A DNA stretch of 21,845 nucleotides from a virus. Of the stretch, positions 1,732 to 21,557 are shown piece by piece. Each line of letters opens with the position of its first letter. Position 1 is the first letter of the stretch. The stretch is taken from positions 1-21,845 of IMG/VR virus record IMGVR_UViG_3300043411_000745; one strand, written 5' to 3'. The translations under genes were made by a program, and so were the position numbers. The notes beneath the pieces were generated by a model that was not told where the DNA came from, made no database searches, and was given only the letters and a program-made list of their open reading frames with translations.

Positions 1732-4359
1732 TCACGTGCCACCACCACCAGAAACAAGATTCATAGTAATTGGCTTATCCTCAATCTTTTCAATTTGAAT
1801 CTCACAATGAGTAACCATAAGATTAATTGAAAGTCCGTTGCTGACGGGGAACAGTTTGAATACTCGAATTTGCCACTCTTCGTCCTGCACAGAATCAATA
1901 ATCCCGGACAACATGAAAGTATGTGAAGTTCTTGACTCAGCGATGCTCCAGATGGTTTGGACACTGCTCAGAACCTTTCTTTCATTTGGGTACTTGACTA
2001 AATGCAAATTGACATCTAGACTAGAAAGATCTGGCATTGAGACCGCTTCAGTCTGCGTAGAAAGTTGAACGACTGCATTGACGCGGTATGTTGCGCTCGT
2101 TGATAACGTCTTAAACACCGGCGCGTGTGCACTCGGCTTAACTTCAAGCTCATCAGGGTTAGAATGAACAAGGCTGCCGTGAAGCGTAATCCTACCGGTT
2201 TCAATAATTGGGACCCGGTTCTCATCTAAGAGGTCTACACCTTGAGTATCTGAGAAGTCAGAGGTGATCGCACCAGTCCACTGGCTCCTTGCAATCACTT
2301 GGAAGGCTTTAGTGATTACATCATAAGCAAGATCTACCCATGCGCCCTTAACACCTAGATAAATGGTGTCAGTGAACTCAGCTTCATTTCTAAATCCACC
2401 TCGAGCTCTCTCCACAATCGGAATAAGATCGCCGAAAGAGTCTGTGCTTAGTTTAACACCAAGTTTGATTGGCGCCTTAATTCTGACATTTGACCCATCT
2501 TGGTTGAAAACTCGCAATTTGAAACTTGAATCGTATCTGAATTTCTGTTCCGGCAAAACAAACTCGGCATCATGATGACCAGCATAAACCGATGCCGCTT
2601 TCAATGGATCGATTTCGATAACCACTGGAACAAACGCTGAGAACGTAATGTCATTCATTAACATAACATCGCGGTTATCAGTATCAGGATTAGGAAACTT
2701 AGATAGCGGCCACGTTGCTTCGTACCCTGATACACCAACATAATACTTTCCAGGCCCAAGATCGACATCTATAAGGCTAAGATAGTCATCACTGGATTTG
2801 TCGTCATTTGTTGAAACCAGCGTGCCATCTGCTTTATAGATCGCAATAGAGGTGTCTTCATCCTGATTGATACTCGTCGTCTCAAACCTGACGCCAACTA
2901 TGGCCTCATCTAAGGTGAACGTGAACCAAGCAATCGCACCAGAATTGGTGTCCTCCCAGTAGGTGCCTATTGCCCCCTTGAAAGGGATTGTAATTTCCTT
3001 AAAAACGGTTGGGGCGTTTAATGTGTCAATTTCTGTCATTGTTAGTAACAGTGATGACGCTGGCATTGGCACGGTGCTCTTCCATTGTGGAGAAGCATAG
3101 TATGTAGCATCGTAATCGGAAGCTACTAATATGATTTCTTGAGTACTTTCAGATGTGTTATCATAAATGAGCGGTGTATTTTCAGGGCCACTCAGAAAGC
3201 TACTTGCGTTGAGTTGAGATCCTCCAAGATAACCCTGAACTGCACCAATGAATGTAGCGCCGGGCGCGATCGAGAGACGCGTTGAAGGTGGCAGAGAGAC
3301 GGCAAATGCCTCACCATTCGATTGTGGGATTGTCCCATTAGCAACATCAAATGTAATTGTTGCCGGCGAAGAGATATTTTGAAGACGCGATGCATCACGT
3401 GGTGAATACAACGCGCTGCTCAGCTTCAATGTGACAGTTGTATTTGCATTCGCTGGGGTGATGTTTACTATACCAACAAGACATTCTGCCCCATTAGTGT
3501 CATTACCCATGAAACTGATTGCAATATTTTCTACATCTTCAGAAATCAAACCAATGGGAAGTCGGATTTCATCAGCAACTGGGCGAACGGATTCAGTTGT
3601 TTGCGGGTCGACTGAATAGATTGGAAAATACGCATCACGATTTGCTGGAACAGTCGTATCCGCGTAGTATAGCGCCATTTGCCCGTTCACGGTTTGTGGA
3701 ACACGTTGGTCACTAACAACGCCACGAGCCGCGTGAAATTGATTTGGGCGATTGAAATAATTGGTGCTGGTGAAAGCGTAAGGAATCGGCCCAACACGAA
3801 CGCCATTAAGGAACAACCCACAATTCTCATCTTCAGTGTCAAGAATAACCGCTTGTGGCGTTGTCACCCCAGTCGAGCTGATAGACATTGAAATTAGCGA
3901 AATGGCCTCAGGCGCAACGTTCGTGTACTTTAGAACGCAGAGTCCATTCGATGGGTTAGCTTCGGCCGCTGTCACGGTCCCGATCACTTCATCATTCGCG
4001 TTCAGCGCTTCTAACCGGAAGTTAAACTGTCCTACTTCTGGGGTGTAGAAAATTAGCTGCGATGCGGCATATTCCGGAATCGTAAACACTCGTGATTGGC
4101 CGGCCAGCACCTCACCCTGCGTCCCAATCCATGCATCTGGTACAACTCCGGTTCCACTAAAAGTCCCCTCCACAACTGCATCTACGAGAGGCGGGAGATC
4201 CGCGGTGCGGATGCGAGAGCCATCAAAGAAACCAAACTCACTCCTGAGTGTATTCTGGATGACGATCATTCCGCCAGGAATGGTGTCAATCGCGGTGACG
4301 CGTAGCTTGGACGGTGTGTGGCTTGCTGCCGGCCCAGTGAAAACAAAACTCATGCTCAA
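1732..4359 (-). CDS. Large virion/tail-fibre-like protein with PPC-type domain
   Basis: An 875-residue, beta-rich, Thr/Ser/Asn-rich protein with no signal peptide or membrane segment, as expected for a phage fibre or decoration protein. Residues about 455-578 look like a bacterial pre-peptidase C-terminal (PPC) beta-sandwich: EDTSIAIYKADGTLV, then LGPGKYYVGVSGY. Residues 618-628 (FNQDGSNVRIK) and 674-690 (WVDLAYDVITKAFQ) match segments near the C terminus of the next protein upstream, so the two share a module. The N-terminal SKLRVTAID (17-25) and NCGLFLNGVRVG (179-190) also have counterparts there. The C terminus ends in a Gly-rich SGGGGT. A GGGGGA ribosome site and a late promoter 62 nt upstream support the start. 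The function, probably host or surface contact, is inferred. Confidence 0.7.
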   Translation of the reverse strand: MSMSFVFTGPAASHTPSKLRVTAIDTIPGGMIVIQNTLRSEFGFFDGSRIRTADLPPLVDAVVEGTFSGTGVVPDAWIGTQGEVLAGQSRVFTIPEYAASQLIFYTPEVGQFNFRLEALNANDEVIGTVTAAEANPSNGLCVLKYTNVAPEAISLISMSISSTGVTTPQAVILDTEDENCGLFLNGVRVGPIPYAFTSTNYFNRPNQFHAARGVVSDQRVPQTVNGQMALYYADTTVPANRDAYFPIYSVDPQTTESVRPVADEIRLPIGLISEDVENIAISFMGNDTNGAECLVGIVNITPANANTTVTLKLSSALYSPRDASRLQNISSPATITFDVANGTIPQSNGEAFAVSLPPSTRLSIAPGATFIGAVQGYLGGSQLNASSFLSGPENTPLIYDNTSESTQEIILVASDYDATYYASPQWKSTVPMPASSLLLTMTEIDTLNAPTVFKEITIPFKGAIGTYWEDTNSGAIAWFTFTLDEAIVGVRFETTSINQDEDTSIAIYKADGTLVSTNDDKSSDDYLSLIDVDLGPGKYYVGVSGYEATWPLSKFPNPDTDNRDVMLMNDITFSAFVPVVIEIDPLKAASVYAGHHDAEFVLPEQKFRYDSSFKLRVFNQDGSNVRIKAPIKLGVKLSTDSFGDLIPIVERARGGFRNEAEFTDTIYLGVKGAWVDLAYDVITKAFQVIARSQWTGAITSDFSDTQGVDLLDENRVPIIETGRITLHGSLVHSNPDELEVKPSAHAPVFKTLSTSATYRVNAVVQLSTQTEAVSMPDLSSLDVNLHLVKYPNERKVLSSVQTIWSIAESRTSHTFMLSGIIDSVQDEEWQIRVFKLFPVSNGLSINLMVTHCEIQIEKIEDKPITMNLVSGGGGT

Positions 4360-4420: not shown

Positions 4421-4427
4421 TATTTAG
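4421..4427 (-). promoter_or_regulatory. T4-type late promoter (CTAAATA)
   Basis: CTAAATA on the minus strand lies in the gap between two fibre genes and 62 nt from the ATG at 4359. It is one of only eight TAAATA hexamers in the window, all pointing at a nearby start codon. The expected start of transcription is near 4415. Confidence 0.75.
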
Positions 4428-6539: not shown

Positions 6540-8651
6540 TTAAACTTCCGGCTCGTCAGAGATCAATACTATGGCCAGTGGGGTTAGCCCGAATGTCATC
6601 AACGGGTCAGATGCTGGCGGCACATAAAAACTAGAAGACCCAGAGCTGGATGAACCTTCTGGGCCCGCTGGGCCTTGCGGACCTACTTCACCTTGCGGGC
6701 CAGTAAGACCAATAGGGCCTTGCGGACCTACTTCACCCTGAGGGCCTTGTGCGCCAATCAGACCTTCAAGCCACTCAAGTTCAGTGCCGACAAAACCATT
6801 AGCGACTGCTACTTCGTAAGCAGACATACCATCGCTTGCAGCGACGATTTGACTACGTAAATCATCCAATTCAGTCTGAAGTCCTGTAACCCCGCTGATT
6901 GCGTGAGCATGGTCAACTAGCGCATACTCTGTGTGCGTGTGTTCAGTGCTTGCCTTGCCGTCTAATGTAGTTTGCAGGCCAGTAACCTGAGCTACCGTAT
7001 GCGTGTGTGACACGAAGGCACGGTTGTCAAGCTCAGACTGGAGACCTGGAACATCTGTAAAGGTGTGGGTATGCCCCACACTCGATTTACCGTCAAGTAC
7101 TCCCTGCAAATTATTCACAGATGAGATTTCGTGGGTGTGCTCCGTGTCAGCCTTACCTGCGAGAGCAGCAGTAAGAGTTTGCCCACTCCCAACGTCAGTT
7201 GCACCAGTTCGGTTAACCGTTGAGTAAACTTCGTCAAACGCATTGAGGTGCGCTCTGTTAGCCTTAGCGACGATCGCAGCATCCAGACCATCAACATCAG
7301 AAACTACATGACTGTGAACCGTCTGAGCGTACTCGCTATGCGAGTGATTCTGTAAAGCGTACTCATTATGCACGTGCGTTGTATCAGCTTTACCATCAAG
7401 TTCTGTCTGCAGATCAGTTACTTGCGCAATGGTGTGACTGTGGGCAACATCAGCTTTGGACGTCTCTAATGCAGTTACATCAGACTGAAGTTCAACAATT
7501 GCACTCGTGTTAGCGTCAATGCTGGTAACATGACTAGCCGTCATCAGTCCACTGGAAGTACCACTAGCATCACTAACAGCAATATCAACTACGCGCTCAC
7601 CAAGCCCGTTAATCGTGTCAGTAACTACTACAGGAGAACCACCAGTAACAATAAGTGAATTCACATCTGCCTGATAGACTTGCGGATAGGTTTCAGCGTC
7701 GATGCCCAGCAAAACCGTGTTTTTGTTCTTCACAAAACCAGCGCGATAGGCCAATAGCCCAGCAGGACGATCAAGGGTCAACTGCCCATTATAGTCGATG
7801 TACAGTGGATCACCTGCATGACCAGCCCAGTCCCATTGATCATGGGTGATTTCACCAAACGGAGCCATGTGCCCAACATCGCCCTGTACCAAATCCTCAA
7901 GGATGATGCCAGTGGGAACACGGGCGGGAACAAGAGCAGGATTAGAGCTCGCCAGGCGTACAGTATCATCAGCTGAGAAGTACACTAAAGACATTGCTGG
8001 AATGTTTTCGCCTGCCCGAACTGGAACGATTCTATTGACCGGCTGCACCAACACGCCAGACGTGCCGGTGGTTGTTTCAACGCGAACAGCGGTGTCGTCC
8101 GTTAGAAATTCACCATTGGATTGGCGAATTGGTTGCAACATGCTGTCGCGCATGATGAACCCTGGGTTGCTAGGCACATTGAGCGAAGCCTGAGTGCCGT
8201 GCGACTGTTGTGTGATTTGGTTTACGTTGCCGTTAAGTACCGTACCAGCAAAAATGCGCGCCTTTACTTGCCACTTATTTCTTGCCTCATTCCAGACCTT
8301 CATAGTCGTGGTCGACAGATCAAACCAATGTTGATCATGCAACTTAGCCGGTTCCACCGCTGACACTAGTGGTGGAACGATTGTGGTTCCATAAGTGACT
8401 TCACCATTAAGAAGGTCAACGTCCCAGTAAAGGTAGTTGTTCACTCCAGATGTCATTGGGCCCCATGCTGCATCTTTCTCACGATCGAAGTGCACCAAGT
8501 AATCTGACGTACCATGTGCCACCGCAAGAACTGTTGGTGTTGGTGACACCGCGTGATCCACGAAACCGGCTATTTGGCTTGGGCGAAGGAAATTGGAGGT
8601 GCCATTGTCCTTTTGGAAGGAAATAAGACCTTGACGGAAATTGATACGCAT
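6540..8651 (-). CDS. Tail fibre-like virion protein with HxH and collagen-like repeats
   Basis: A 703-residue trimeric-fibre type protein. The N-terminal 140 residues, beginning [20 protein letters not shown], look like a virion attachment domain. Residues 404-583 hold nine H-x-H motifs (HSH, HVH, HTH, HAH) in a repeat of the form HTHxxxQVTGLQTxLDGKA. Repeats of this kind form triple-stranded shafts, and in the T4 gp37 tip such histidines bind iron. Residues about 607-632 ([20 protein letters not shown]) form a conserved phage-fibre linker and lead into a collagen-like Gly-x-y stretch at 633-666. A Ser/Gly hinge and a short hydrophobic end follow. GGAG stands 6-7 nt before the ATG, and the start is 3 nt after the holin-candidate stop. 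Fibre type is well supported; host receptor contact is inferred. Confidence 0.85.
6654..6755 (-). repeat. Collagen-like Gly-x-y coding repeat
   Basis: Encodes eleven successive Gly-x-y triplets ([11 protein letters not shown] type). At DNA level a 23-bp segment at 6670-6692 recurs exactly at 6715-6737, 45 bp apart, in frame. Such repeats change length by slippage or recombination. Confidence 0.85.
6903..7442 (-). repeat. HxH fibre-shaft coding repeats
   Basis: Nine H-x-H motifs, most followed by a VxxLQxxLDGKA-like element. Spacing between motifs ranges from about 10 to 22 residues, apart from one gap of about 57. The copies have diverged at DNA level. This is a protein repeat within the fibre gene, not a CRISPR array. 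Confidence 0.8.
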
Positions 8652-8654
8652 TCT

Positions 8655-9035
8655 TTACTCCGGTTTTTCAACTGTCATTTCTGCTTGTGTTCTTACTGAC
8701 TTTTCGTTGTACCCATATTTAGCAGACACAAATTTGCTGTATGCTTCCACACCGCCAACGTACGTTAAGTAGATACCAAACAAGCTTTCAGTCAGCCCGC
8801 CGGTCAGGGTTAGCTTGATCATGATCCACGTAGCTGTCAACCCACCGACTAGCTGCAAGACTTTTGTGAGGGATACAGACTTGCCATTCTTAGTGATGAT
8901 GTCGGCAAAGTCTAGTTTTTCTGAGCGCTGAATGCGCCAAAATAAGAACAGTACTCCAAGCAGCAGCATCAGGATAGATACTGCCATAAGATTGATTTCG
9001 TATCCATAAATGGATAAGATCATGGCGGTGGTCAT
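8655..9035 (-). CDS. Small membrane protein, holin candidate
   Basis: A 126-residue protein from the ATG at 9035, which has an ideal AGGAG ribosome site; a longer reading to a TTG at 9071 would include the late promoter. The first hydrophobic segment is at about residues 16-33 (LMAVSILMLLLGVLFLFW). A charged stretch with KLDFADIITKNGKSVS follows. The second hydrophobic segment is VLQLVGGLTATWIMIKLTL, and a weaker third is SLFGIYLTYVGGVEAY. The tail is charged. Size and topology suit an inner-membrane holin. Its ribosome site is in the same promoter-hairpin arrangement as the endolysin gene, which supports a lysis role timed to late infection. Another phage membrane protein remains possible. 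Confidence 0.55.
   Translation of the reverse strand: MTTAMILSIYGYEINLMAVSILMLLLGVLFLFWRIQRSEKLDFADIITKNGKSVSLTKVLQLVGGLTATWIMIKLTLTGGLTESLFGIYLTYVGGVEAYSKFVSAKYGYNEKSVRTQAEMTVEKPE
8716..8722 (-). promoter_or_regulatory. T4-type late promoter (CTAAATA) for fibre gene
   Basis: CTAAATA on the minus strand lies within the 3' end of the holin-candidate gene, 65 nt before the fibre start at 8651. The spacing resembles the late promoters before the fibre gene at 4359 and gp32. Because it overlaps coding sequence, confidence is lower than for the intergenic copies. Confidence 0.6.
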
Positions 9036-9042
9036 TGCGTCT

Positions 9043-9066
9043 CCTAAACAAGATGGTCTATTTAGG
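9043..9066 (-). promoter_or_regulatory. RBS hairpin of holin-candidate gene
   Basis: On the minus strand CCTAAA (9061-9066, part of the late promoter) can pair with TTTAGG (9043-9048), whose GG begins the AGGAG ribosome site. The loop is 12 nt. A transcript started at about 9053 from the late promoter lacks the first arm, so only read-through RNA could hide the ribosome site. The stem is only 6 bp. Confidence 0.5.
9059..9065 (-). promoter_or_regulatory. T4-type late promoter (CTAAATA) for holin candidate
   Basis: CCCTAAATAGA on the minus strand, 24 nt before the ATG at 9035. The expected transcription start is near 9053, leaving a leader of about 18 nt with AGGAG. Confidence 0.75.
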
Positions 9067-9074
9067 GGCAAGAA

Positions 9075-9100
9075 TGAAAAAGGAACCTATTTAGGTTCCC
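9075..9100 (-). terminator. Intrinsic terminator after the 2H phosphoesterase gene
   Basis: On the minus strand GGAACCT (93-99), a 4-nt loop and AGGTTCC (82-88) form a 7-bp stem followed by TTTTTC, a standard Rho-independent terminator. It closes the nrd/glutaredoxin/2H operon, whose last stop is at 9134. Confidence 0.85.
9088..9094 (-). promoter_or_regulatory. Late-promoter motif inside terminator loop
   Basis: CCTAAATAGG spans the loop and inner stem of the terminator at 9075-9100. It is a second TAAATA copy 53 nt before the holin-candidate ATG. It may be a functional upstream start, so that termination of the operon and late initiation share the same bases, or simply a by-product of the stem sequence. 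Confidence 0.4.
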
Positions 9101-9133
9101 TTATTTGTCAGCTAATGCCTATATTCTGCGTTG

Positions 9134-9541
9134 TTACTCTGTCAGTGCCTCGGTATGTTCACGGTGAAAGTGTAGTTGGAAGTTTACAGGCGTTAGGTTG
9201 TTCAAATTCACAATGGCTTTGAACTGTAGTGTCATATGCAGATTGAACTCTGGGTAATCATGTGTTCCACCCTGCTCCATGAACATGTTATGCCGTGTTT
9301 CTAACTCGGGGCAAGACAGTCTCAGTACAAGACAGTCACCGAACATATCGAAATGAGTACCGGTTGCAATGAATTTTTCATCACAAGGAGACACATTCAC
9401 CACGCTCCGTGAATACAGGGTGGTCACGTGGAGGTTAGGATCTAGATGAATTTTGTTTTCGGCAGCCCACGCATTCAGAAGCTCCAGAGTTGACTCTGTC
9501 GGAATTACTGCAACATAGGTGCCGGTAACTACTTCACTCAT
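9134..9541 (-). CDS. 2H phosphoesterase, probable anti-CBASS Acb1-like protein
   Basis: A 135-residue protein with the two H-x-T motifs of the 2H (LigT-like) phosphoesterase superfamily: LHVTTLYS (H38, T40) and NLHMTLQF (H102, T104). The small size, single-domain form and T4-type genome match Acb1 (T4 gp57B), which degrades the cyclic oligonucleotide signals of CBASS defence in the host cytoplasm. The opening GTYVAVIPTES forms the usual first strand. The start ATG shares one base with the glutaredoxin stop (TGATG), so the two are translationally coupled. A terminator follows. The 2H fold and active site are well supported. The anti-CBASS assignment is inference; RNA ligase or cyclic phosphodiesterase roles are the alternatives. 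Confidence 0.75.
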   Translation of the reverse strand: MSEVVTGTYVAVIPTESTLELLNAWAAENKIHLDPNLHVTTLYSRSVVNVSPCDEKFIATGTHFDMFGDCLVLRLSCPELETRHNMFMEQGGTHDYPEFNLHMTLQFKAIVNLNNLTPVNFQLHFHREHTEALTE

Positions 9542-9786
9542 CAGGCCAACACCTTACGGAGTTCAGGAAGACTACCAATTTTAGTATCTCCGTTCATGAT
9601 TTGCGGCATCATTCTAGCGCCAGGGATCAGCTCAAGAAGCGCGTCTCGATCAATGTACTCAGCATCAGCCTCACGCGGTTGGCCAATGTCAAGCTGTACA
9701 GTTTTGTATTCAATGCCGTGACTTTCAAGCAGCGCTTTAGCTTGATCACACTGTGGGCAATTTGGTTTTGTGTATACAGTGAACAT
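9541..9786 (-). CDS. Glutaredoxin
   Basis: An 81-residue glutaredoxin from the ATG at 9786. It begins MFTVYTKPNCPQCDQAK, with the redox pair C-P-Q-C at residues 10-13, and has the GSH-binding cis-Pro region MMPQIMNGDTKIGS. It would reduce NrdA at its C-terminal cysteine pair, as T4 NrdC does, so the position directly after nrdB makes sense. A longer reading from a GTG at 9834 is less likely, because that codon is in the centre of the 9821-9847 hairpin. There is no clear Shine-Dalgarno sequence before 9786. The stop overlaps the next start. Confidence 0.92.
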   Translation of the reverse strand: MFTVYTKPNCPQCDQAKALLESHGIEYKTVQLDIGQPREADAEYIDRDALLELIPGARMMPQIMNGDTKIGSLPELRKVLA

Positions 9787-9820
9787 GCGTTTTGTGAAAT
9801 TTGTTGAGAGGGTAAATTGT

Positions 9821-9847
9821 AAGATGACGAGCACTGCTCGTCATCTT
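9821..9847 (-). terminator. Perfect hairpin between nrdB and glutaredoxin gene
   Basis: AAGATGACGAGCA and its reverse complement flank a single central base, giving 13-bp arms. It starts 3 nt after the nrdB stop. There is no U-run, so it may attenuate or process the RNA rather than stop transcription fully. Confidence 0.55.
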
Positions 9848-9850
9848 CTA

Positions 9851-10939
9851 TTACAGGTCAGGGAGCTCGTCGTAGTTGACTTCTGAAGTCATTGCGCCGA
9901 TCACGTAACTAACGCTCTCATTTTCTTGCAGGGCGGTTTGTGTCTTATTTGTATTCAAGTGCTTATTGAACCATGGGAGTGGAGCAGATTTGATACCAGC
10001 GTCGTACTTCATACCAATTTCGCGTAGGCGAAATTGAGCAGTAAAGTCAACGTGCGCACACATGATAGCCTCGTTCATTCCAAGAACTGTGCCCTTCTGG
10101 AAGATGTGCTTTGCCCATTCCTTTTCCTCACGAATGACATCCATCATCATTTCATAAGCTTCAGCAGCACAGTCAATTCGTGCTTGGCGGAACCGAGGAT
10201 CATCCTTACAGATGGTGTTCAATATCCAAGCAGTGGCGTCAGTATGCAACAGTTCATCAGCCAAAATCAAACTGATCACGTTACCATTGCCAATGAAGAT
10301 CTTGTTCTCCACCATACCAAGTGATGTACTGAAGGACACCATGAAGCGAATAGCTTCCAGGCCATACGAGGCAATCAGCGCCAAGTAGATAGCCTTAATG
10401 TACTCATATTCATCGACTTGTTGACCAACGGCAACCTTACAATTCATCACGTGCAGATTGTGATAGTACTTGTCGATAGATGACAACATACCAACAATTT
10501 CAGAGGTGTCATGAATTGTATTGAACTGCTCAGACGGCATCTGGTAGATGTTACGAATGATATGTGAATACGACTCACTATGAATCTGCTCGAATGCAGA
10601 CCACCACTGTACCCATGCCTCAGCTTCAGGAACGGAACATACGGGGGTAAAGATTTGGACTGGAGCTCTGCCCTGGATTGAATCGAGGGCAGTTTGACGA
10701 AGAAGGTTCTGCGTGAAGATGAAGCGTGTTGCTTCATCTGCCTTCGAGAAATCGATCTTGTCCTTAGTCAGGGTGACTTCATCAGGCACCCAAATAGCGC
10801 CGCGCTGAGTCTTGACAAACTTGTCAAGCTTAGGATACGCGAACTGGTCATAACGCTGGATGGTCACTGATCCTGCTGGATCCAAGAACATTTGACGCTT
10901 GCTGTAGTCTGTTTGTTTAGAAAAATCTAGTTTGGTCAT
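9851..10939 (-). CDS. nrdB: Class Ia ribonucleotide reductase beta subunit
   Basis: A 362-residue radical-generating subunit. With NrdA it reduces ribonucleoside diphosphates to deoxy forms. All diiron ligands line up with E. coli NrdB: Asp in ALDSIQGR, Glu and His in EQIH, Glu in LEAIRF, and Glu and His in ADELLH. The radical tyrosine is present in SESYSHIIRN. The C-terminal end, EVNYDELPDL, is the usual tail that docks on NrdA. The start is taken at the ATG at 10939 (MTKLDFSKQ); a longer reading to 11023 would only translate the HNH gene's 3' end in another frame. The first 23 nt overlap the HNH homing endonuclease gene, which also supplies the upstream GGAAAG ribosome site. Confidence 0.97.
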   Translation of the reverse strand: MTKLDFSKQTDYSKRQMFLDPAGSVTIQRYDQFAYPKLDKFVKTQRGAIWVPDEVTLTKDKIDFSKADEATRFIFTQNLLRQTALDSIQGRAPVQIFTPVCSVPEAEAWVQWWSAFEQIHSESYSHIIRNIYQMPSEQFNTIHDTSEIVGMLSSIDKYYHNLHVMNCKVAVGQQVDEYEYIKAIYLALIASYGLEAIRFMVSFSTSLGMVENKIFIGNGNVISLILADELLHTDATAWILNTICKDDPRFRQARIDCAAEAYEMMMDVIREEKEWAKHIFQKGTVLGMNEAIMCAHVDFTAQFRLREIGMKYDAGIKSAPLPWFNKHLNTNKTQTALQENESVSYVIGAMTSEVNYDELPDL

Positions 10940-11849
10940 TTTGCGAATCTTTCCATATGGTCCACTCTTGATCAAGTAATGGATTCCATCCGTGTTTGAT
11001 TTTAATATAAGGTCCCTTAGCACCTTGATACGGATTTAGGTTTGGGAACAGGCGAGATATTTGTCCGCACGTGGCATTAGGATCTTGCTGAATAGCTTCA
11101 AAAATCTCCCCAGCTAACAGCCAGGAAAGTTTAGCACTTGGGTTTGACTTGACCGCTGACCCATTCCATGCGCACCTTTTCGTCTTATCAGAGAGAAGCT
11201 TATAAGAAATACCCCTTTTGGTTAATTTTGTTGGTGTAAAGGTTGCGTCTTTATCATATGACCAAAATCTTTTTGCGGCTGTTCTCTTACCATCTGTTCT
11301 CACACAAGAAAAAATCGTCTGCACATGAACGTTATACTTCAGAGCAGCTTCAGCAACACAATGAAAAGATTCGATATACTTGCCAGTGCTAGGATCAAAG
11401 CAGTGCACGCTTTTAGTATTTTGTGCTGCGGCCGCACTGATTTTTCTCTTCGCTTCTTCAGAATGTTTTCTTCCAAGCATGGGATGCTTATTTTCAGAAT
11501 GCCATTCTTTCATTTTTGTACTAATCATGGCGGAATATCGTTTCTTAAACCACCCATATGTTTTATTTTTTCGTGGTGTTGTTGGGCTATCCATCAACAT
11601 TGCCGCTACAGCGTAAATTAACTTTTGATTCGTTGGATAAATTTTAACCAACATCAAATGTGCAACATAATGTTCCTCAGGTGTCAAATCAACAAGATTG
11701 GTTGTGTCATCTGTTCCACCAAGACACCGTGGAACAATATGGTGCCGTTCAAAATATCCAGAAAGCGTTCTTGATTTCGCCTTCTGGATAAGCTTCTCAT
11801 AATGTGAGAGCCACTTATAAGACGCAGGATTCGCAAATATAGTCTTCAT
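10917..11849 (-). CDS. HNH homing endonuclease (MobE position, nrdA-nrdB junction)
   Basis: A 310-residue free-standing endonuclease. The HNH core is at residues about 31-64: ERHHIVPRCLGGTDDTTNLV, then EEHYVAHL. A NUMOD3-type DNA-binding helix with LGRKHSEEAKRKIS follows at 125-138. A NUMOD1-like segment at 146-198 holds FDPSTGKYIESF and FWSYD. The rest is a basic C-terminal DNA-binding region. T4 carries mobE at the same nrdA-nrdB junction. The gene starts 32 nt inside the nrdA 3' end and ends 23 nt inside nrdB, in other frames, so its ends are built from both neighbours. The ATG at 11849 has GGTGAAG upstream; an ATG at 11873 is also possible. A late-promoter motif and hairpin precede it. 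Endonuclease class is certain; activity and target are not. Confidence 0.92.
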   Translation of the reverse strand: MKTIFANPASYKWLSHYEKLIQKAKSRTLSGYFERHHIVPRCLGGTDDTTNLVDLTPEEHYVAHLMLVKIYPTNQKLIYAVAAMLMDSPTTPRKNKTYGWFKKRYSAMISTKMKEWHSENKHPMLGRKHSEEAKRKISAAAAQNTKSVHCFDPSTGKYIESFHCVAEAALKYNVHVQTIFSCVRTDGKRTAAKRFWSYDKDATFTPTKLTKRGISYKLLSDKTKRCAWNGSAVKSNPSAKLSWLLAGEIFEAIQQDPNATCGQISRLFPNLNPYQGAKGPYIKIKHGWNPLLDQEWTIWKDSQNDQTRFF

Positions 11850-14307
11850 CTTCACCAGAATTAGTAATCTCATTACTATTTACTGGTTGAGAAACGCCTA
11901 CATTTTGGGGCTCGACACCCTTCTCGGGTTCACGAACCGCCTCTAAAGCCGCTTGTTTGTTGCGAAGATCATAATAGTGGCTCTTGACGCCATAGAGAAT
12001 AGCCATCATGTAAACACGAAGAACATCATTGATGTCAATTTTTCCATCTTTATAGAACTTACCATTAAACCACGTATCTGCAGAGATGCCTTGGTCAACG
12101 TACACTTGCAGCACAGCGACAGTCTTGATGTACTCAATACAGTCCTTTTGATCCCACAGGAGTTGATAGTGGTTCTTAAGCTTCTTGTACTCAGGAACAA
12201 CTTGAACAAAGTCACCAGCCTTAGAACGCTTGGTAACGATCATCTGCTTCACAAGGTTGATGCCATTGGTTGAATTCAACACAACAGATGAGGACTCAAC
12301 TGGGGCGATCGCCATAAGTGTTGCGTTACGAATGCCGTACTTCAACAACTTAGCGCGCAGCCCTTCCCAATCCAAGTCGTCACTTGGAGTAAAGTCAGTC
12401 AGTTCATTTACGCCTGCTGCCCGACGCTCCCATGGGAAGATGCCCTGACCATAACGCGTCTTGGATGACATCTCGCAAGGGCCCTTTTCCTTAGCAAGCT
12501 CAACGCTAGTTTCGGTCAGGTAAAAAGCTTGGTGCTCCATCCAGCGCTTGACTTCAGCAAGCGCTTCAGTTTCACCATACTTCAACTTACGCTTTGCATG
12601 CCAGTACGCAAGGTTAGTGATGCCAATGCCAAGAGGTTCGAACTCCTTATTGTGCAACTCAGAATGTGCAGACAGGAAGTCCTGGTACTGCAGCAGGTTG
12701 TGCAGCGCACGGTGGAGCAGACGCGCAGGGCGGCGCATTTCTTCTGGATGTCTGAATACACCCCAGTTCAATGACCCAAGAGTACAAAGAGCAATTCGAC
12801 CGGTATCTTCCTTGACTTCGAAAGTAACTTCCTCAGACGTCTGCTCGGCGACACGAGGGGCTGCCAGGTGGCGTGGGAGATTTGTCAAGAATGGAATTAC
12901 ATCGGCGAGTGCCTTAGTGACTCGGGTGAGTTTGAACTTACCGATTGCCACCGTCGGCAACATAATTTCCGTGCACAGATTAGTCTGATACACTGGGTGG
13001 ACGGCCGGGTCGAATGGCCCTTGGCGCTGTACATTGTCGATGTTCAGTAGGTAGATGCGACCGGTTTCAGCGCGCTCGATCATCAGCCAATCACGCATGA
13101 CTTTCTCGGCCGATTCCTGCTTCTTGCGCAGATCCGTGCGCTTCTCATACGCAACATAAAGTTCTTCAAACTTCTCGATGTCACTGTAGAAAGCATCGTA
13201 CAGCTCTGGCACTTCATTTGGGTCAAAGAACGTGATCACGCCCTTCTGTTTGAACCGGCGCCAGAAGAACGAACTCAAAACAACACAGTAATCCAGTTGA
13301 CGAACACGGTTTTCTTCAGTGCCCTTGTTGTTCTTGAGGACAATGTAATCATCAAACTGATAGTGCCAGATTGGTAGGTTTACGGTTGCTGAAGCATTGC
13401 GAATGCCGCCCTGTGAACATGAACGCAGATCACCAAACCACTTCTTTAGGAATGGCAGAATACCGGTATGCATGACCTCACCCTTACGGATGGGGGCACC
13501 AAGAGGGCGCATACGGCCAAACTCAAGACCAATGCCGGCGCGCTTGGCTGCGTAGTTGGCCATGATCTTGCCGGTGTCGAAAATCGAATCAAGATCGTCG
13601 CCCGTGCGAAGCAGAACGCAAGAGCTGAATTGCTTGGTTTTCGTACCAAGGCCAGCCAGCACTGGCGTAGCCAGCGTGAACATGCCGTCTGAAGCAGCGT
13701 TGTAGAAGTCACGAACCCACTTCAAGCGATCCTTCTTTTCAGCATGGAAGGCTGTTGCAGCAGCCACCATGTAGCGGATCTGCGGTGTCTCAACCATCAG
13801 CCCTGTAGCACGGTTGCGAACCAAGTACTTTTCAATCAGCTGCTCAACTGCCGCGTATGGAAGCTCTTCGTCCTTTGAGTGGTCAATGTGCTTCTCGAGC
13901 TGATCCCATTCATCTTCAGTGTACCACGTCAGAAGGTCGGGCGTGTACAGCTCATGCTCCACGTTCTTCTTCACCACATCATATAGGCGTGGTGGGGTGT
14001 AAGACCCAAACACGTCCTTGCGAAGCATAGTGATGCGCTGCTTGCCGGCCACATATTGATAATTCACATCACCAATATCAGGGTTTAGCTCTTCGTCAAT
14101 CAGGTTGACCATTGACTTCAATGCAATTTCATCAAGCATCCTTGTAGTCATGCCATCATGGAACTGCGCCCTGGCTGCAATCTCGATCATTGAAGGGCTA
14201 ACATTGGCGACACCCTCACAGATCTTAGCAATGTGAGCCTGCCACTTAGCAAGATCAAACTTTTCCTTTGTGTCGTCACGCTTGACGACGTATGTATTGT
14301 TATTCAT
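11815..14307 (-). CDS. nrdA: Class Ia ribonucleotide reductase alpha subunit
   Basis: An 830-residue catalytic subunit that reduces all four ribonucleoside diphosphates. An ATP-cone begins at the N terminus (YVVKRDDTKEKFDLAKW), so allosteric activity control is likely. Catalytic residues are in place: C230 (FSSC), N443-x-C445-x-E447 (NLCTEI), C508 (RIALCTL), and the C-terminal redox pair in CESC (C825, C828) reduced by glutaredoxin. It is about 70 residues longer than E. coli NrdA. About 40 of these lie between C445 and C508, where E. coli has only 23 residues between C439 and C462. The start ATG overlaps the preceding gene's stop by 4 nt (ATGA). The 3' end overlaps the HNH gene but is complete, so the enzyme is not split as it is in phage Aeh1. 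Confidence 0.97.
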   Translation of the reverse strand: MNNNTYVVKRDDTKEKFDLAKWQAHIAKICEGVANVSPSMIEIAARAQFHDGMTTRMLDEIALKSMVNLIDEELNPDIGDVNYQYVAGKQRITMLRKDVFGSYTPPRLYDVVKKNVEHELYTPDLLTWYTEDEWDQLEKHIDHSKDEELPYAAVEQLIEKYLVRNRATGLMVETPQIRYMVAAATAFHAEKKDRLKWVRDFYNAASDGMFTLATPVLAGLGTKTKQFSSCVLLRTGDDLDSIFDTGKIMANYAAKRAGIGLEFGRMRPLGAPIRKGEVMHTGILPFLKKWFGDLRSCSQGGIRNASATVNLPIWHYQFDDYIVLKNNKGTEENRVRQLDYCVVLSSFFWRRFKQKGVITFFDPNEVPELYDAFYSDIEKFEELYVAYEKRTDLRKKQESAEKVMRDWLMIERAETGRIYLLNIDNVQRQGPFDPAVHPVYQTNLCTEIMLPTVAIGKFKLTRVTKALADVIPFLTNLPRHLAAPRVAEQTSEEVTFEVKEDTGRIALCTLGSLNWGVFRHPEEMRRPARLLHRALHNLLQYQDFLSAHSELHNKEFEPLGIGITNLAYWHAKRKLKYGETEALAEVKRWMEHQAFYLTETSVELAKEKGPCEMSSKTRYGQGIFPWERRAAGVNELTDFTPSDDLDWEGLRAKLLKYGIRNATLMAIAPVESSSVVLNSTNGINLVKQMIVTKRSKAGDFVQVVPEYKKLKNHYQLLWDQKDCIEYIKTVAVLQVYVDQGISADTWFNGKFYKDGKIDINDVLRVYMMAILYGVKSHYYDLRNKQAALEAVREPEKGVEPQNVGVSQPVNSNEITNSGEDEDYICESCVL
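11854..11887 (-). promoter_or_regulatory. RBS hairpin of HNH endonuclease gene
   Basis: On the minus strand ACCAG (11883-11887) pairs with CTGGT (11854-11858), and TAGTAAT (11872-11878) pairs with ATTACTA (11862-11868) around a GAG loop, with a small asymmetric internal loop between. The outer right arm covers GGT of the GGTGAAG ribosome site. The late motif GTAAATA lies in the left arm. It recalls the hairpin that hides the mobE ribosome site in another T4-like phage. Confidence 0.5.
11877..11883 (-). promoter_or_regulatory. T4-type late promoter (GTAAATA) for HNH gene
   Basis: GTAAATA inside the nrdA 3' end, 28 nt before the HNH ATG at 11849. The predicted start of transcription near 11871 removes the whole left arm of the hairpin. 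Overlap with coding sequence lowers certainty, but TAAATA is otherwise absent from coding regions except at 8716 and at the stop of the 21348-21557 ORF. Confidence 0.55.
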
Positions 14308-14597
14308 CCGTTTAGTTGTTTAGTAGTTAAAGGAATAGCGACAGAATCTTCAGAACGAAGGTTGGCTGCTGCGATAGGGTCCTGCTGAATGATGACCTTG
14401 GCAATAATCTGTCGGCGTAAATCATTGGCTTGATCCACGGTCATGGCTGGCTTATTTGCCTCTAATCTTCGTTCAATCTCTAATCCCATCAAATACTCTA
14501 CAAAGTCCATGTTGTACGAGACCGCTTTACTGGTCACCGTGGTAAAAACCCTCGGCGGATCGGTGTCTTTAAGTTGTGGCGCAGAAAAGTCGTTCAT
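14304..14597 (-). CDS. Small protein upstream of nrdA, unknown function
   Basis: A 97-residue protein from the ATG at 14597 (MNDFSAPQLK); an ATG at 14606 is an alternative and neither has a good ribosome site. The N-terminal third is polar and the rest looks helical, with MDFVEYLMGLEIERRLEAN and VDQANDLRRQIIAKVIIQQD. No cysteines, signal peptide or membrane segment are seen, and I recognise no family. Its TGA overlaps the nrdA ATG (ATGA), so the two are translated together. This could mean a role linked to RNR or simply compact gene packing. Confidence 0.75.
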   Translation of the reverse strand: MNDFSAPQLKDTDPPRVFTTVTSKAVSYNMDFVEYLMGLEIERRLEANKPAMTVDQANDLRRQIIAKVIIQQDPIAAANLRSEDSVAIPLTTKQLNG

Positions 14598-14628
14598 ATG
14601 TAACATTGTAACTGGCAGAGCCCCCGAT

Positions 14629-14645
14629 GCCCACATAGAGTGGGC
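14629..14645 (-). terminator. Hairpin after endolysin gene
   Basis: GCCCAC, a 5-nt loop and GTGGGC form a 6-bp GC-rich stem 13 nt beyond the endolysin stop. There is no U-run, so it may be a weak terminator or a 3'-end stabiliser. Confidence 0.4.
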
Positions 14646-14658
14646 TCAGGATTAAGAA

Positions 14659-15246
14659 TTAAGCCAATGGGCCACGTACAAAATCACGAATTTCGTTGAT
14701 TCGACGCAGCCAGCCGTTTAAGAACTTTGCCTGTGTTGGCTTGGAAGCCACAATAGCTTTGTAGAACTTTTCACGGCGATCACACAGTAATCTGCAGACA
14801 TCTAGCTCATTCATTGCGCTTACGGCCTTCGCAGTTCCAGGACCCACGGCGCCATCTACAGGCTTCGCACCAACGACTTCTTGAAGAAATTTTGAAGCTC
14901 GCCCAACGCCATGATTCACGCACCCGTCAAAATGCAGAATGGCAACTCGAGGAGGTAGGCGGTCGCAACCACCAGCAATCCAGTACTTGTCAAAGTAGCA
15001 CTGTTTCGCTTGCTCCCAGGTGAGTGAAGTGATGTCAAGATCTGTGTTTGCGTTTTTGGCTACACCGTATTTGGTTTCACCACCCGCATCATCAGGATCA
15101 TTTACATAACCAACCTTGCGCCGCTGCGCTCGGCTTCCAATGAGACCAAGCTTGGTCTCTTTATCGTTCGGATTAAACCACCCGCCGACCTCATAGATCA
15201 TTGCGTGAGCAACGGCGCGCTCAAACGCCGGTGTGAATTTAGACAT
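14659..15246 (-). CDS. Endolysin, GH108-type muramidase
   Basis: A 195-residue peptidoglycan hydrolase of the GH108 family with a C-terminal peptidoglycan-binding type 3 region. The catalytic Glu is E19 in YEVGGW. The family's second motif, YVNDPDDAGGETKYGV, follows at 47-62. Usually this motif comes directly after the E-G-G; here about 25 extra residues (WFNPNDKETKLGLIGSRAQRRK) intervene. The C-terminal half has FDGCVNHGVGRASKFLQ and VDGAVGPGTAKAV, the usual binding-domain pattern. There is no signal peptide, so export needs a holin. The ATG at 15246 is chosen for its GGGAG site; upstream ATGs at 15261 and 15258 lie in the leader hairpin. It replaces the T4 e-type lysozyme, yet uses the same promoter-hairpin control. 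Confidence 0.9.
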   Translation of the reverse strand: MSKFTPAFERAVAHAMIYEVGGWFNPNDKETKLGLIGSRAQRRKVGYVNDPDDAGGETKYGVAKNANTDLDITSLTWEQAKQCYFDKYWIAGGCDRLPPRVAILHFDGCVNHGVGRASKFLQEVVGAKPVDGAVGPGTAKAVSAMNELDVCRLLCDRREKFYKAIVASKPTQAKFLNGWLRRINEIRDFVRGPLA

Positions 15247-15274
15247 ATAGACTCCCATCATTCAGGGAGCCTAT
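15247..15274 (-). promoter_or_regulatory. RBS-sequestering hairpin of endolysin gene
   Basis: On the minus strand ATAGGCTCCC (15265-15274) pairs with GGGAGTCTAT (15247-15256) through 10 consecutive pairs (one G-U) around an 8-nt loop. The right arm contains the GGGAG ribosome site and reaches the base before the ATG. The left arm contains the end of the late promoter. Late transcripts starting near 15266 lack most of the left arm and should be translated, whereas read-through transcripts should not. Confidence 0.8.
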
Positions 15275-15278
15275 TTAC
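15272..15278 (-). promoter_or_regulatory. T4-type late promoter (GTAAATA) for endolysin
   Basis: GTAAATAGG on the minus strand, 26 nt before the ATG at 15246 in the 41-nt gap after the previous gene. The expected start near 15266 lies within the left arm of the RBS hairpin, the same geometry as T4 gene e. Confidence 0.75.
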
Positions 15279-15287
15279 TGTGCAGAA

Positions 15288-15803
15288 TCAGCCCAGGATG
15301 TCACCTACGGTCTTGCCTGAAATGTATCGCCAGAGATCACTCGGCCCAACAACGACACCACGAGAGGTGACTTTCCCATGGCTTGTGCCGGGGCTAACCG
15401 CGTGAACAATGGCGTTTGCTTTTTCAATTGCGGGATAGATACATGATCCATTGGATTCCCAATTGACAACCTGAATTGGAGCAGTAATCAGCTTACCATC
15501 TTCAGGAGAAAAGATAAAAGCCTCATGAGCAAAAGAAGCACACGCTGTTACTGGAACTGCGTCCACAGTATAAGTTTCTCGATCAACGATAAGAATGTTC
15601 CACGCGCCTGGAACCTTTACCTCAGCACCTTCAATCATGAGAGTGACTGTGGGGCCGAGTGTTTCCTCAAGGTATGAGATTTCGTTGAGCGTGAAATCAA
15701 GTTGCTGACCACTAAATGCCCAGTGGAATCTTGCGCCTTGTGGAAGGGGTTGTGACAAGGAGTCTACAACATAGGGTTTATTCGTTTCGGCGAGGACGAT
15801 CAT
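15288..15803 (-). CDS. Unknown phage protein
   Basis: A 171-residue protein of unknown function. It appears globular and mixed alpha/beta, with no membrane segment or signal peptide. Notable segments are GAWNILIVDRETYTVDAVPV (67-86), where a hydrophobic strand is followed by an Asp, and a C-terminal VVVGPSDLWRYISGKTVGDI. A GAGAG ribosome site lies 7 nt before the ATG at 15803. It lies between uvsW and the endolysin gene and has the same strand, so it may share a transcript with either. I cannot assign it to a family. Confidence 0.8.
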   Translation of the reverse strand: MIVLAETNKPYVVDSLSQPLPQGARFHWAFSGQQLDFTLNEISYLEETLGPTVTLMIEGAEVKVPGAWNILIVDRETYTVDAVPVTACASFAHEAFIFSPEDGKLITAPIQVVNWESNGSCIYPAIEKANAIVHAVSPGTSHGKVTSRGVVVGPSDLWRYISGKTVGDILG

Positions 15804-15877
15804 TCATAGGCTCTCATAGTCAATAATGGAGATTGTAACAATGTAACCTTGAAATGCTTATGGCACCCGGGATGTTA

Positions 15878-15910
15878 ATAGCAGGTGAAATACTCAGTCA
15901 ATCCTGCTAT
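15878..15910. other. Hairpin in uvsW downstream gap
   Basis: ATAGCAGG (15878-15885) and CCTGCTAT (15903-15910) form an 8-bp stem with a 17-nt loop in the 155-nt non-coding gap between uvsW and the 15288-15803 gene. No gene is seen in this gap. Confidence 0.5.
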
Positions 15911-15928
15911 GTTCCTTCAAAACAAGTT

Positions 15929-15944
15929 ATAGGCGCGGGCCTAT
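15929..15944 (-). terminator. Possible terminator after uvsW
   Basis: ATAGGC and GCCTAT form a 6-bp stem with a 4-nt loop, 14 nt beyond the uvsW stop. On the minus strand it is followed by AACTTGTTTTG, a poor U-tract, so termination is likely only partial. Confidence 0.4.
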
Positions 15945-15958
15945 CAAGGGGTACACAA

Positions 15959-17368
15959 TCAAAGTTTTGCCTTAACCGTTTTCATCACGGTGTAAGAAGC
16001 CTCTTTGTAGAATTTGGTTCGTTCTCTGGCATGTTTCTTGCCCCACTTCAACCCACTATACACATCTGTGACGTGGACAAACTCTTTGTCACGCCCTTTA
16101 CGAAGCCCTCGCCCAATCGACTGAATGGCGCGAACAAATGATTTGCCAGCGTCGATTAGGCAAAGATGAAAAATTCTATCGATGCTAATACCGGTCGATG
16201 CAATACCGGCAGTTGCCAGTACGATCAGGTCGTCGCGCTTTTCGAATGTTGAGTACCACTCCGCGCGAACTTCAGTTTCATCAGCACCGCAGAGGAAAAC
16301 AGAGTCATTGATCAACTTCTGAAGCTGCTGACCTTGCTTGATGCTATTCACTAGAACCAATGTGTTACCGTGCTCAGCTGCCTTTGAGATGATGAGGTCG
16401 GCCAAGAATTCAAGGCGGTCCTTGCTCTTGCTGGTGTATGCCTTTTCTGACGAGTAATCTGGAAAGTCCTCTTCAACTGTCTCTTGGACTTCAATCGGCT
16501 GAATCTCGAGGTTCGCAAGGTAGCCCATGTTAATCAGGTCGGCCGCGTTAATCTCATAGAGGATGTCGCCAATAGATCCACGTAGGGTGTATTGATCTGT
16601 TAGTGGCTTAGGCCAAGTGCCTGTGAACCCGTAGCGATAGGCAATGTTCTTGCCGTGATTTGTCAGCAGATCACCAATAGTAGCTGCCTTTGCGCCGTGT
16701 GCTTCATCAACAATTGCCACTTGGAAATCTTCCATGACACTTGGATTATTTTGGAGCGCCTGCCATGTAGCAATCACGTGCGGCTGATACAAATCTTTCT
16801 TTGCACCAGAATACAGGCCGTGTTGAATACCGCACAGCTTAAAGGTCTGCGAGGTTTGCTCAACAAGGTCTGATGATGGAACGATTGTAATTGAGCGGTA
16901 GCCCTCATTACCAAAAACATCGCACATGCCAGCAACCATGATGGTTTTGCCGGCACCAGTTGCGGCAATCACAAACCCTGACCCAGCATCTAATGCGGCA
17001 TTTACTGCCTCAATTTGATAAGGTCTGATGGATATTGGAACTTGTGATCTCCCATCAAACCATTTTTCATGAAGCCGTCCTTCAACAAGGTTTACAGGAC
17101 GGCGCTCATCATGGAGTTCTACGTCATAGCCCCACTTTTCAAGGAATGGTAGGATGTCTGACAAGAACCGCAAGAAGACCTTACCTGTCTTCTCATAGAA
17201 GCGAATCTTGCCATCCCAACGACCGAGTCGGCGAGCAGGCATATACCAGGATCCTTCTACTTCCACCCCAAATCTATTCCATAAGAATTGATGGTCACTT
17301 GGCTCAACACCAGAGACTGTCATGTATACTTCATCACGTACCCAAATATGGGCAACTTTTTTTGTCAT
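15959..17368 (-). CDS. uvsW: UvsW-type DNA/RNA helicase
   Basis: A 469-residue superfamily 2 helicase. In T4, UvsW unwinds R-loops and branched DNA, moving replication from origins to recombination. An N-terminal substrate-binding region (about 1-105) precedes the RecA-like core. Motif I AATGAGKT is at 135-142, DEAH at 221-224 and FTGT at 248-251. A second RecA domain has motif V near LATAGIASTGISI (384-396) and motif VI QSIGRGLRKG at 416-425. Size and order match T4 UvsW. The ATG at 17368 lacks a good ribosome site, perhaps because the GIY-YIG gene was inserted directly upstream. Transcription probably comes from the uvsY side, antisense through that gene. Confidence 0.95.
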   Translation of the reverse strand: MTKKVAHIWVRDEVYMTVSGVEPSDHQFLWNRFGVEVEGSWYMPARRLGRWDGKIRFYEKTGKVFLRFLSDILPFLEKWGYDVELHDERRPVNLVEGRLHEKWFDGRSQVPISIRPYQIEAVNAALDAGSGFVIAATGAGKTIMVAGMCDVFGNEGYRSITIVPSSDLVEQTSQTFKLCGIQHGLYSGAKKDLYQPHVIATWQALQNNPSVMEDFQVAIVDEAHGAKAATIGDLLTNHGKNIAYRYGFTGTWPKPLTDQYTLRGSIGDILYEINAADLINMGYLANLEIQPIEVQETVEEDFPDYSSEKAYTSKSKDRLEFLADLIISKAAEHGNTLVLVNSIKQGQQLQKLINDSVFLCGADETEVRAEWYSTFEKRDDLIVLATAGIASTGISIDRIFHLCLIDAGKSFVRAIQSIGRGLRKGRDKEFVHVTDVYSGLKWGKKHARERTKFYKEASYTVMKTVKAKL

Positions 17369-17372
17369 TTAT

Positions 17373-17379
17373 CTAAATA
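17373..17379 (+). promoter_or_regulatory. T4-type late promoter (CTAAATA), plus strand
   Basis: The only plus-strand TAAATA in the window, in the 38-nt divergent gap between uvsW and the GIY-YIG gene. It is 28 nt before the ATG at 17407. A weak 6-bp pairing of TTTATC (17368-17373) with GATAGA (17391-17396) touches the GAAGG ribosome site, resembling but weaker than the hairpins at the endolysin and HNH genes. Confidence 0.65.
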
Positions 17380-17406
17380 CAGAAAGGTTGGATAGAAGGC
17401 CCGGCA

Positions 17407-18120
17407 ATGAAAGAAGCTTGTTTCTATGTGTATGCATATTGTAACGTTACAAAGCCATTGTTACAAGATCAGCTCAGGTTTGAGCCGTTTTATGTTGGTA
17501 AAGGGTGCAACAACAGAATCAATGACCATTTACGGGATGCAATTGCTGGAAAGCGCGGTAAGAAGCTTTCCCATATCAGAAATCTAATTCATAAGAATGC
17601 TCACCCAGAAATTGTGATGATATCTAATGGGCTTACAGAGAGCGAGGCGTTTGCGCTAGAAATTTCTCTCATTGCGAAATATGGGAGGTTAGATTTAGGA
17701 ACTGGCTGTTTGTTTAACAATACACCTGGTGGTGATGGTGCAAAACATACTGCAGAAACCAATAGGCGTATTGCTGAGAAATTATCTGGTAGAAAACTTC
17801 CACTTGAAGTTCGTTCGCGTATTTCCAAAGCTTTAACTGGGAAGTCTAGGGATAGTGCCGCTAAAGAGAAAATTTCCAAAACACTTTCGGGTGTAAAACA
17901 TAGTGACCAACGATGCCAAAACATCAGTAAAGGAACTAAAAACGCTGCGATGAAATGGCAAAAGAGGTGGCTTATTACTACACCTGAAACCTCCTTCTGT
18001 ATCTTGTCATTAGACTATCTCAATGAGACTGGTATTGAAAGTTTGTATGGATCATTTAGGTCCAAAAAACCCATCTCACGAGGCCGTCTCAAGGGATGGT
18101 CTCTTACCGAAATTAAATGA
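17407..18120 (+). CDS. GIY-YIG homing endonuclease
   Basis: A 237-residue free-standing endonuclease and the only plus-strand gene. The GIY-YIG domain is of the FYVY...FYVGKG type: FYVY at 6-9, FYVGKGCNNR at 28-37 with the conserved Arg37, H41, the metal-binding Glu at about 85 (ALEISLI) and FNNTPGGDG at 103-111. Three NUMOD3-like basic repeats follow, such as HTAETNRRIAEKLSGRK, RSRISKALTGK and KEKISKTLSGVKHS, which would bind the target DNA. A GAAGG ribosome site is 7 nt before the ATG. It overlaps uvsY tail to tail by 8 nt and fills the uvsY-uvsW junction. It looks more A+T-rich than its neighbours, consistent with recent acquisition. The target is unknown; a site in uvsW or uvsY of a related phage is likely. 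Confidence 0.92.
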   Translation: MKEACFYVYAYCNVTKPLLQDQLRFEPFYVGKGCNNRINDHLRDAIAGKRGKKLSHIRNLIHKNAHPEIVMISNGLTESEAFALEISLIAKYGRLDLGTGCLFNNTPGGDGAKHTAETNRRIAEKLSGRKLPLEVRSRISKALTGKSRDSAAKEKISKTLSGVKHSDQRCQNISKGTKNAAMKWQKRWLITTPETSFCILSLDYLNETGIESLYGSFRSKKPISRGRLKGWSLTEIK

Positions 18121-21347: not shown

Positions 21348-21557
21348 CTATTTAGCGGCTGCCGCCGATCTGTTTTGTTTTTGCTTATCGCATTGGTCAA
21401 CGCGATAGATGAATTGTAACAGGGTGTATATGATGCGCATCCCTGCATTGGGTCCAGTGTGCTTCTTGTGTGGGACGAGATTGTCGCGGATGTTGAATAG
21501 GGTGGATGATTGCAATGCACCGCCCTTGATGTTATCATTCGTCGCGCCTGCGATCAT
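21348..21557 (-). CDS. Small ORF upstream of gp32, unknown function
   Basis: A 69-residue ORF from the ATG at 21557. It is hydrophilic, with a central HKKHTGPNAGMRIIYTLLQF and a tail rich in Lys, Gln and Ala (CDKQKQNRSAAAAK). Third codon positions favour C and G, as in the genes nearby, which argues for real coding. The ribosome site is weak. Its stop codon TAG is part of the late-promoter motif of gp32 (GCTAAATAG). It lies between a strong palindrome and gp32. No family is recognised. Confidence 0.5.
   Translation of the reverse strand: MIAGATNDNIKGGALQSSTLFNIRDNLVPHKKHTGPNAGMRIIYTLLQFIYRVDQCDKQKQNRSAAAAK
21350..21356 (-). promoter_or_regulatory. T4-type late promoter (CTAAATA) for gp32
   Basis: CTAAATAGG on the minus strand, 67 nt before the gp32 ATG. 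The predicted leader of about 60 nt could hold a translational control site as in T4 gene 32, but no clear pseudoknot was found by eye. Confidence 0.7.

Follow-up and report, generated by a model that had tools for sequence, protein, structure and literature searches.

The stretch analysed here (the window) is a virus fragment of 21,845 bases that carries the T4-like genes nrdA, nrdB, uvsW, uvsY, uvsX and gp32. When the window was compared with phage records by Megablast, no match was found, and an Rfam search gave none either. The relatives of its phage are jumbo phages of about 290–350 kb, and the source is itself a jumbo T4-like phage using TAAATA late promoters. The T4 late promoter is TATAAATA at −13 to −6, and that of phage Aeh1 is CTAAATA (PMC1524935); the core in the window is preceded by C or G, in agreement with these forms. 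Eight NTAAATAN late-promoter sites are present in the window, four of them near the start of a gene and three far from one (Table 1).

Table 1. Genes, late promoters and predicted hairpins of the window. Distances are those between the ATG and the leading T of TAAATA.
Feature	Position	Strand	Remarks
Gene 1732–4353, distant late promoter	4421..4426	−	73 nt
Gene 6540–8651 (tail repeat), distant late promoter	8716..8721	−	70 nt
Small membrane protein gene	8655..9035	−	phrog_1322; no Pfam match; holin candidate of the initial annotation
Membrane protein, marginal hairpin CCTAAATAG...TTGTTTAGG	9043..9066	−	across promoter and first SD bases; −7.7 kcal/mol, p 0.03
Membrane protein, late promoter core	9059..9064	−	29 nt (9064 to 9035)
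Terminator-like hairpin	9079..9102	−	TAAATA in loop; between Acb1-like and membrane-protein genes
HNH homing endonuclease gene	10917..11849	−	phrog_655, NUMOD3; between nrdA and nrdB
HNH extended hairpin	11849..11892	−	CCAG upstream of promoter pairs with CTGG at weak SD; −13.8 kcal/mol, p 0.002
HNH late promoter core	11877..11882	−	33 nt (11882 to 11849); within coding sequence of nrdA C-terminal linker
Endolysin gene	14659..15246	−	GH108 muramidase domain (Pfam PF05838, E 1.8e-18) and PG_binding_3 (PF09374); phrog_315 endolysin
Endolysin switch hairpin, right arm GGGAGTCTAT	15247..15256	−	includes Shine-Dalgarno (SD) GGAG; by folding
Endolysin switch hairpin, left arm ATAGGCTCCC	15265..15274	−	overlaps promoter; mostly upstream of predicted late start (about 15266)
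Endolysin late promoter core TAAATA	15272..15277	−	31 nt (15277 to 15246); −11 to −6 by analogy with T4 and Aeh1
GIY-YIG late promoter core	17374..17379	+	33 nt (17374 to 17407); no RBS hairpin; upstream uvsW divergent
GIY-YIG homing endonuclease gene	17407..18120	+	
gp32, distant late promoter	21349..21354	−	71 nt

If the count begins where the motif ends, the near promoters lie at 23–27 nt and the far ones at 64–67 nt, close to the figures of the initial annotation, and the split it drew between them in the window is real. Folding also bore out its statement about the far promoters, at which no RBS hairpin with the promoter in one arm was found. The remaining TAAATA site (9093) sits in the loop of the terminator-like hairpin, where one palindrome (9079–9102) combines promoter core and terminator-like stem. 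The product of the gene at 9134–9541 (−) is homologous to Acb1, an anti-CBASS protein (Pfam PF23474, E 1e-25); the PHROGs label for the family is RNA ligase.

Leaders of the four near promoters

The start of the endolysin gene was placed at 15246 because the leaders of its homologues end at the same codon. The family calls for the endolysin and the membrane protein came from protein queries with slightly long N termini, which did not affect them. The endolysin hairpin, of 10 bp and −16.7 kcal/mol, is the only strong one among the four near-promoter leaders and was rarely matched by shuffled sequences (p 0.0005 with the whole leader shuffled, p 0.002 with the left side only). None of 373 foreign RBS segments paired as well with its left side. 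The 5′ arm holds the promoter, a short distance from the start codon, and the 3′ arm holds the SD. In the folding model the SD has an unpaired probability of 0.00 in the long RNA and of 0.34–0.44, only partly open, in the predicted late RNA, which was modelled with 5′ ends placed +10 to +14 relative to the leading T of TAAATA and would lack most of the left arm. Upstream, on the same strand, the gene at 15288–15803 ends 11 nt before the promoter. An assignment of this leader to the promoter-in-hairpin switches of the T4 gene e type, as a new member at a GH108 enzyme, is well supported.

The initial annotation had described promoter-in-stem hairpins at the endolysin, membrane-protein and HNH genes and a weaker one at the GIY-YIG gene. 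Outside the endolysin leader this picture held only in part. The local HNH stem alone was not significant (p 0.2). Inclusion of 6–10 bases upstream of the promoter, extents that were chosen afterwards, gave −11.3 to −13.8 kcal/mol (p 0.002–0.004) and buried the weak SD; the late RNA remained mostly closed in the fold model. With the upstream bases counted this hairpin is plausible, and the leader may be a switch of the same kind. The membrane-protein hairpin is marginal: its p value rose to 0.14 when only the left side was shuffled, access to the SD hardly shifted (from 0.25 to 0.31), and the hairpin was absent from all 5 homologues with a near promoter. No hairpin beyond chance was detected in the GIY-YIG leader (p 0.2–0.55).

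The HNH promoter and hairpin fall in a variable linker near the C terminus of NrdA. Relatives have no TAAATA inside this stretch, apart from one genome (G008) with a copy only at the stop codon. This suggests that the promoter was gained together with the endonuclease gene, a history that would be comparable to that of Aeh1 mobE. As with mobE, an HNH homing endonuclease with its own late promoter stands at nrdA/nrdB. A search of viral contigs for relatives of the HNH gene found none. The insertion neighbourhoods of both endonucleases are common to very distant phages, the HNH gene having the place of T4 mobE between nrdA and nrdB and the GIY-YIG gene that of T4 segE beside uvsW.

Endolysin leaders in related phages

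A TAAATA 22–50 nt before the start is kept in 53 of 61 related endolysin loci. Of the 27 distinct endolysin leaders that lack a back-to-back opposite promoter, 21 have the hairpin, compared with 64 of 347 for all near-promoter genes (p 3e-10). The left arms of 24 such leaders, the window included, are all different, with a mean identity of 0.34 over 8 nt. Paired with their own right arms they reach a mean of −10.8 kcal/mol, against −5.0 kcal/mol when arms are swapped, and 0 of 10,000 permutations were as low. This covariation is the strongest result of the analysis and amounts to compensatory evolution of the pairing. It also bears on another reading, in which the hairpins would be intrinsic terminators that end the preceding gene and overlap the promoter by accident. 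Terminator-like hairpins do occur at this place in some relatives (for example at 15193 in genome G003), as does the one at 9079–9102 in the window, but the right arm of the endolysin hairpin is the SD itself, followed by the ATG and not by a run of T, and the arms covary with the SD. We consider the terminator reading very improbable.

Endolysins behind back-to-back late promoters had the hairpin in only 2 of 13 cases, against the 21 of 27 without such promoters. Examples of endolysins behind opposite late promoters (TATTTATC...GATAAATA), mostly hairpin-free, are loci L012, L013, L020, L022 and L061, among others. The back-to-back criterion was adopted after the data had been seen, in place of automatic calls of upstream orientation that were unreliable and gave no significant result. 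The contrast was not significant after allowing for the endolysin tree, on which it reduces to 3–6 independent changes, and genome-wide it was a trend only (hairpin in 2/24 vs 62/323, p 0.28).

Near promoters and hairpins genome-wide

The phage of the window being known from a 21.8 kb fragment, the genome-wide test was made in nine jumbo relatives and T4, with gene starts and labels in the relatives taken from a simple gene caller and similarity searches. The method was checked on T4, where the scan returned exactly e, I-TevI, segB, 49 and soc; PMC3014915 lists four of these as sequestering the RBS, and PMC2988022 lists segB.

In the nine relatives TAAATA most often precedes the next start by 20–40 nt, and the genes in this set are mostly neither lysis nor endonuclease genes. 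Placement of the late promoter at 20–40 nt is ordinary in the jumbo relatives and in T4, and structural genes share it; the T4 set with a near promoter and no hairpin contains genes 9, 18, 20, 22, 24, 36, 51 and 53 as well as holin t. The promoter-distance rule of the initial annotation, by which short spacing would mark toxic or selfish genes, accordingly fails, since near distance does not separate lysis and endonuclease genes from structural ones.

Hairpins are nevertheless in excess at near promoters. In the nine relatives they were found at 51 of 286 near-promoter genes and at 53 of 804 without (p 1.5e-7), an about threefold excess, and 61 were observed where permutation of RBS segments among genes gave 20.9 ± 4.8. 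Could they be chance, arising in short leaders whose promoter region happens to complement the SD? The background rate at genes without a near promoter is 6.6%, some of the genome-wide hairpins may be chance pairings or terminators, and the membrane-protein, GIY-YIG and local HNH hairpins of the window are within or near chance, where the initial annotation had expected its pairings to exceed those of shuffled leaders. The threefold excess, the permutation test and the covariation of the endolysin arms speak against chance as a general account, to which we give hardly any credence, and for the endolysin it is refuted.

The hairpins stand before genes of many kinds: a baseplate wedge protein, tail-fibre-like proteins, many unknown proteins, members of the head–tail adaptor family (3 of 9 genomes) and the head maturation protease, in which the stem lies upstream of the SD. 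A 288-residue family (G001 155183–156049 and homologues), with weak matches to virion proteins, has a promoter-proximal hairpin in 5 of 9 genomes. Strong promoter–RBS hairpins precede RusA-like Holliday junction resolvase genes in G006 (39875–40492) and G009 (104440–104991), the latter matching phrog_244. The nearest large relative, G001, has about 26 homing endonuclease genes, of which 14 have a late promoter of their own near the start.

The initial annotation had proposed one control class for proteins harmful if made early, in lysis or DNA cleavage, marked by a late promoter 20–30 nt before the ATG. Some of the counts lean that way. Homing endonucleases often have a near late promoter (20/44 vs 317/3999 other genes, p 4e-11, mostly from the homing-endonuclease-rich G001), endolysins with a near promoter are enriched for the hairpin (4/5 vs 55/317 other genes, p 0.004), homing endonucleases and lysins pooled reach 9/25 vs 55/317 (p 0.03), and the RusA-like hairpins in two genomes parallel T4 resolvase gene 49. 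Yet homing endonucleases, taken by themselves, show no enrichment for the hairpin over other near-promoter genes (5/20, p 0.37), the membrane-protein homologues have none (0/5), and significance is lost when these holin candidates are added (p 0.14). The enrichment for lysis and endonuclease functions that the annotation anticipated was seen for endolysins but not for homing endonucleases or holin candidates. Holin t of T4 and the window's GIY-YIG gene have near promoters, the normal placement of late promoters, but no hairpin; conversely, hairpins recur before the head–tail adaptor, the virion-type family, the baseplate wedge protein and tail fibres. Since they also precede structural genes and unknown proteins, a lysis and DNA-cleavage class does not cover the pattern. 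Moreover, when the I-TevI hairpin was deleted, the endonuclease did not mediate any effect on T4 viability; the harm came via intron splicing (PMC2988022). A single harmful-protein class is thus unlikely.

Read-through and known switches

The mechanism itself is already known from T4: the long early RNA is closed, and the late RNA, begun inside the 5′ arm, is open (PMC3014915, PMC2988022). Genes under this switch are late genes that lie on long early or middle polycistronic transcripts (PMC2988022). By analogy, early or middle RNA would read through from the upstream gene at 15288–15803 and carry the whole promoter region of the endolysin. This long RNA would fold the 10 bp hairpin and bury the SD, and no endolysin would be made. 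Late RNA polymerase would start within the left arm, giving an RNA without most of that arm, and the ribosome site would then open for endolysin synthesis. The same design probably operates at a minority of the other genes with a late promoter near the start. Its selective cause is most likely the risk of too-early read-through, rather than toxicity of the product or promoter distance.

Read-through accounts for the hairpin pattern better than toxicity on three grounds. In T4 every hairpin gene lies on the minus strand, that of the early/middle genes (5/12 vs 0/14, p 0.012), and holin t has no hairpin. Hairpin genes more often lie behind a same-strand gene, a weak association (upstream gene co-directional for 50/64 vs 182/283 others, p 0.04). 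Finally, the hairpin is mostly absent from endolysins behind back-to-back promoters, with the tree caveat given above, and also from the window's GIY-YIG gene, which is divergent. We judge it quite probable that the leader of the endolysin acts as a timing switch like that of T4 gene e, selected by early read-through and not by toxicity or promoter distance. The toxic-gene rule is thereby replaced by a testable one, that the hairpin should track upstream read-through.

A broader proposal is more tentative, and we hold it at somewhat below even chances: that promoter-in-hairpin leaders form a widespread layer of timing control in jumbo T4-like phages, present, beyond background, at about one in ten near-late-promoter genes. 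Such leaders would be gained where a late gene sits in an early or middle unit and lost elsewhere, many of the affected genes are of unknown function, and origins would be independent at unrelated endolysins, resolvases and endonucleases.

The closest known counterpart of the window endolysin is T4 gene e, also an endolysin gene with a late promoter in the 5′ arm and the SD in the 3′ arm (PMC3014915), the RNA states of the window gene being predicted. The window enzyme differs in being by Pfam a GH108 muramidase, outside the T4 lysozyme family of gpE, and in having a single promoter, GTAAATA, in jumbo T4-like phages. It belongs by the kind of switch, not by protein family: the classic T4 lysozyme switch recurs on an unrelated endolysin family in distant phages, and what recurs is the control and not the enzyme.

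The HNH gene resembles Aeh1 mobE, an HNH gene at nrdA/nrdB with a late promoter and RBS-sequestering RNA (reviewed in PMC2988022). It differs in that it lies between intact nrdA and nrdB genes, with promoter and hairpin written into the nrdA C-terminal linker, and in that opening of the late RNA is not clearly predicted. T4 I-TevI and segB are homing endonuclease genes with hairpins of the same geometry, and the window GIY-YIG gene is like T4 segE in its near promoter, lack of a hairpin and divergent neighbour. T4 gene 49 (endonuclease VII) and soc, no homologue of which was seen in the window, share the geometry and bring a resolvase and a capsid protein into the class.
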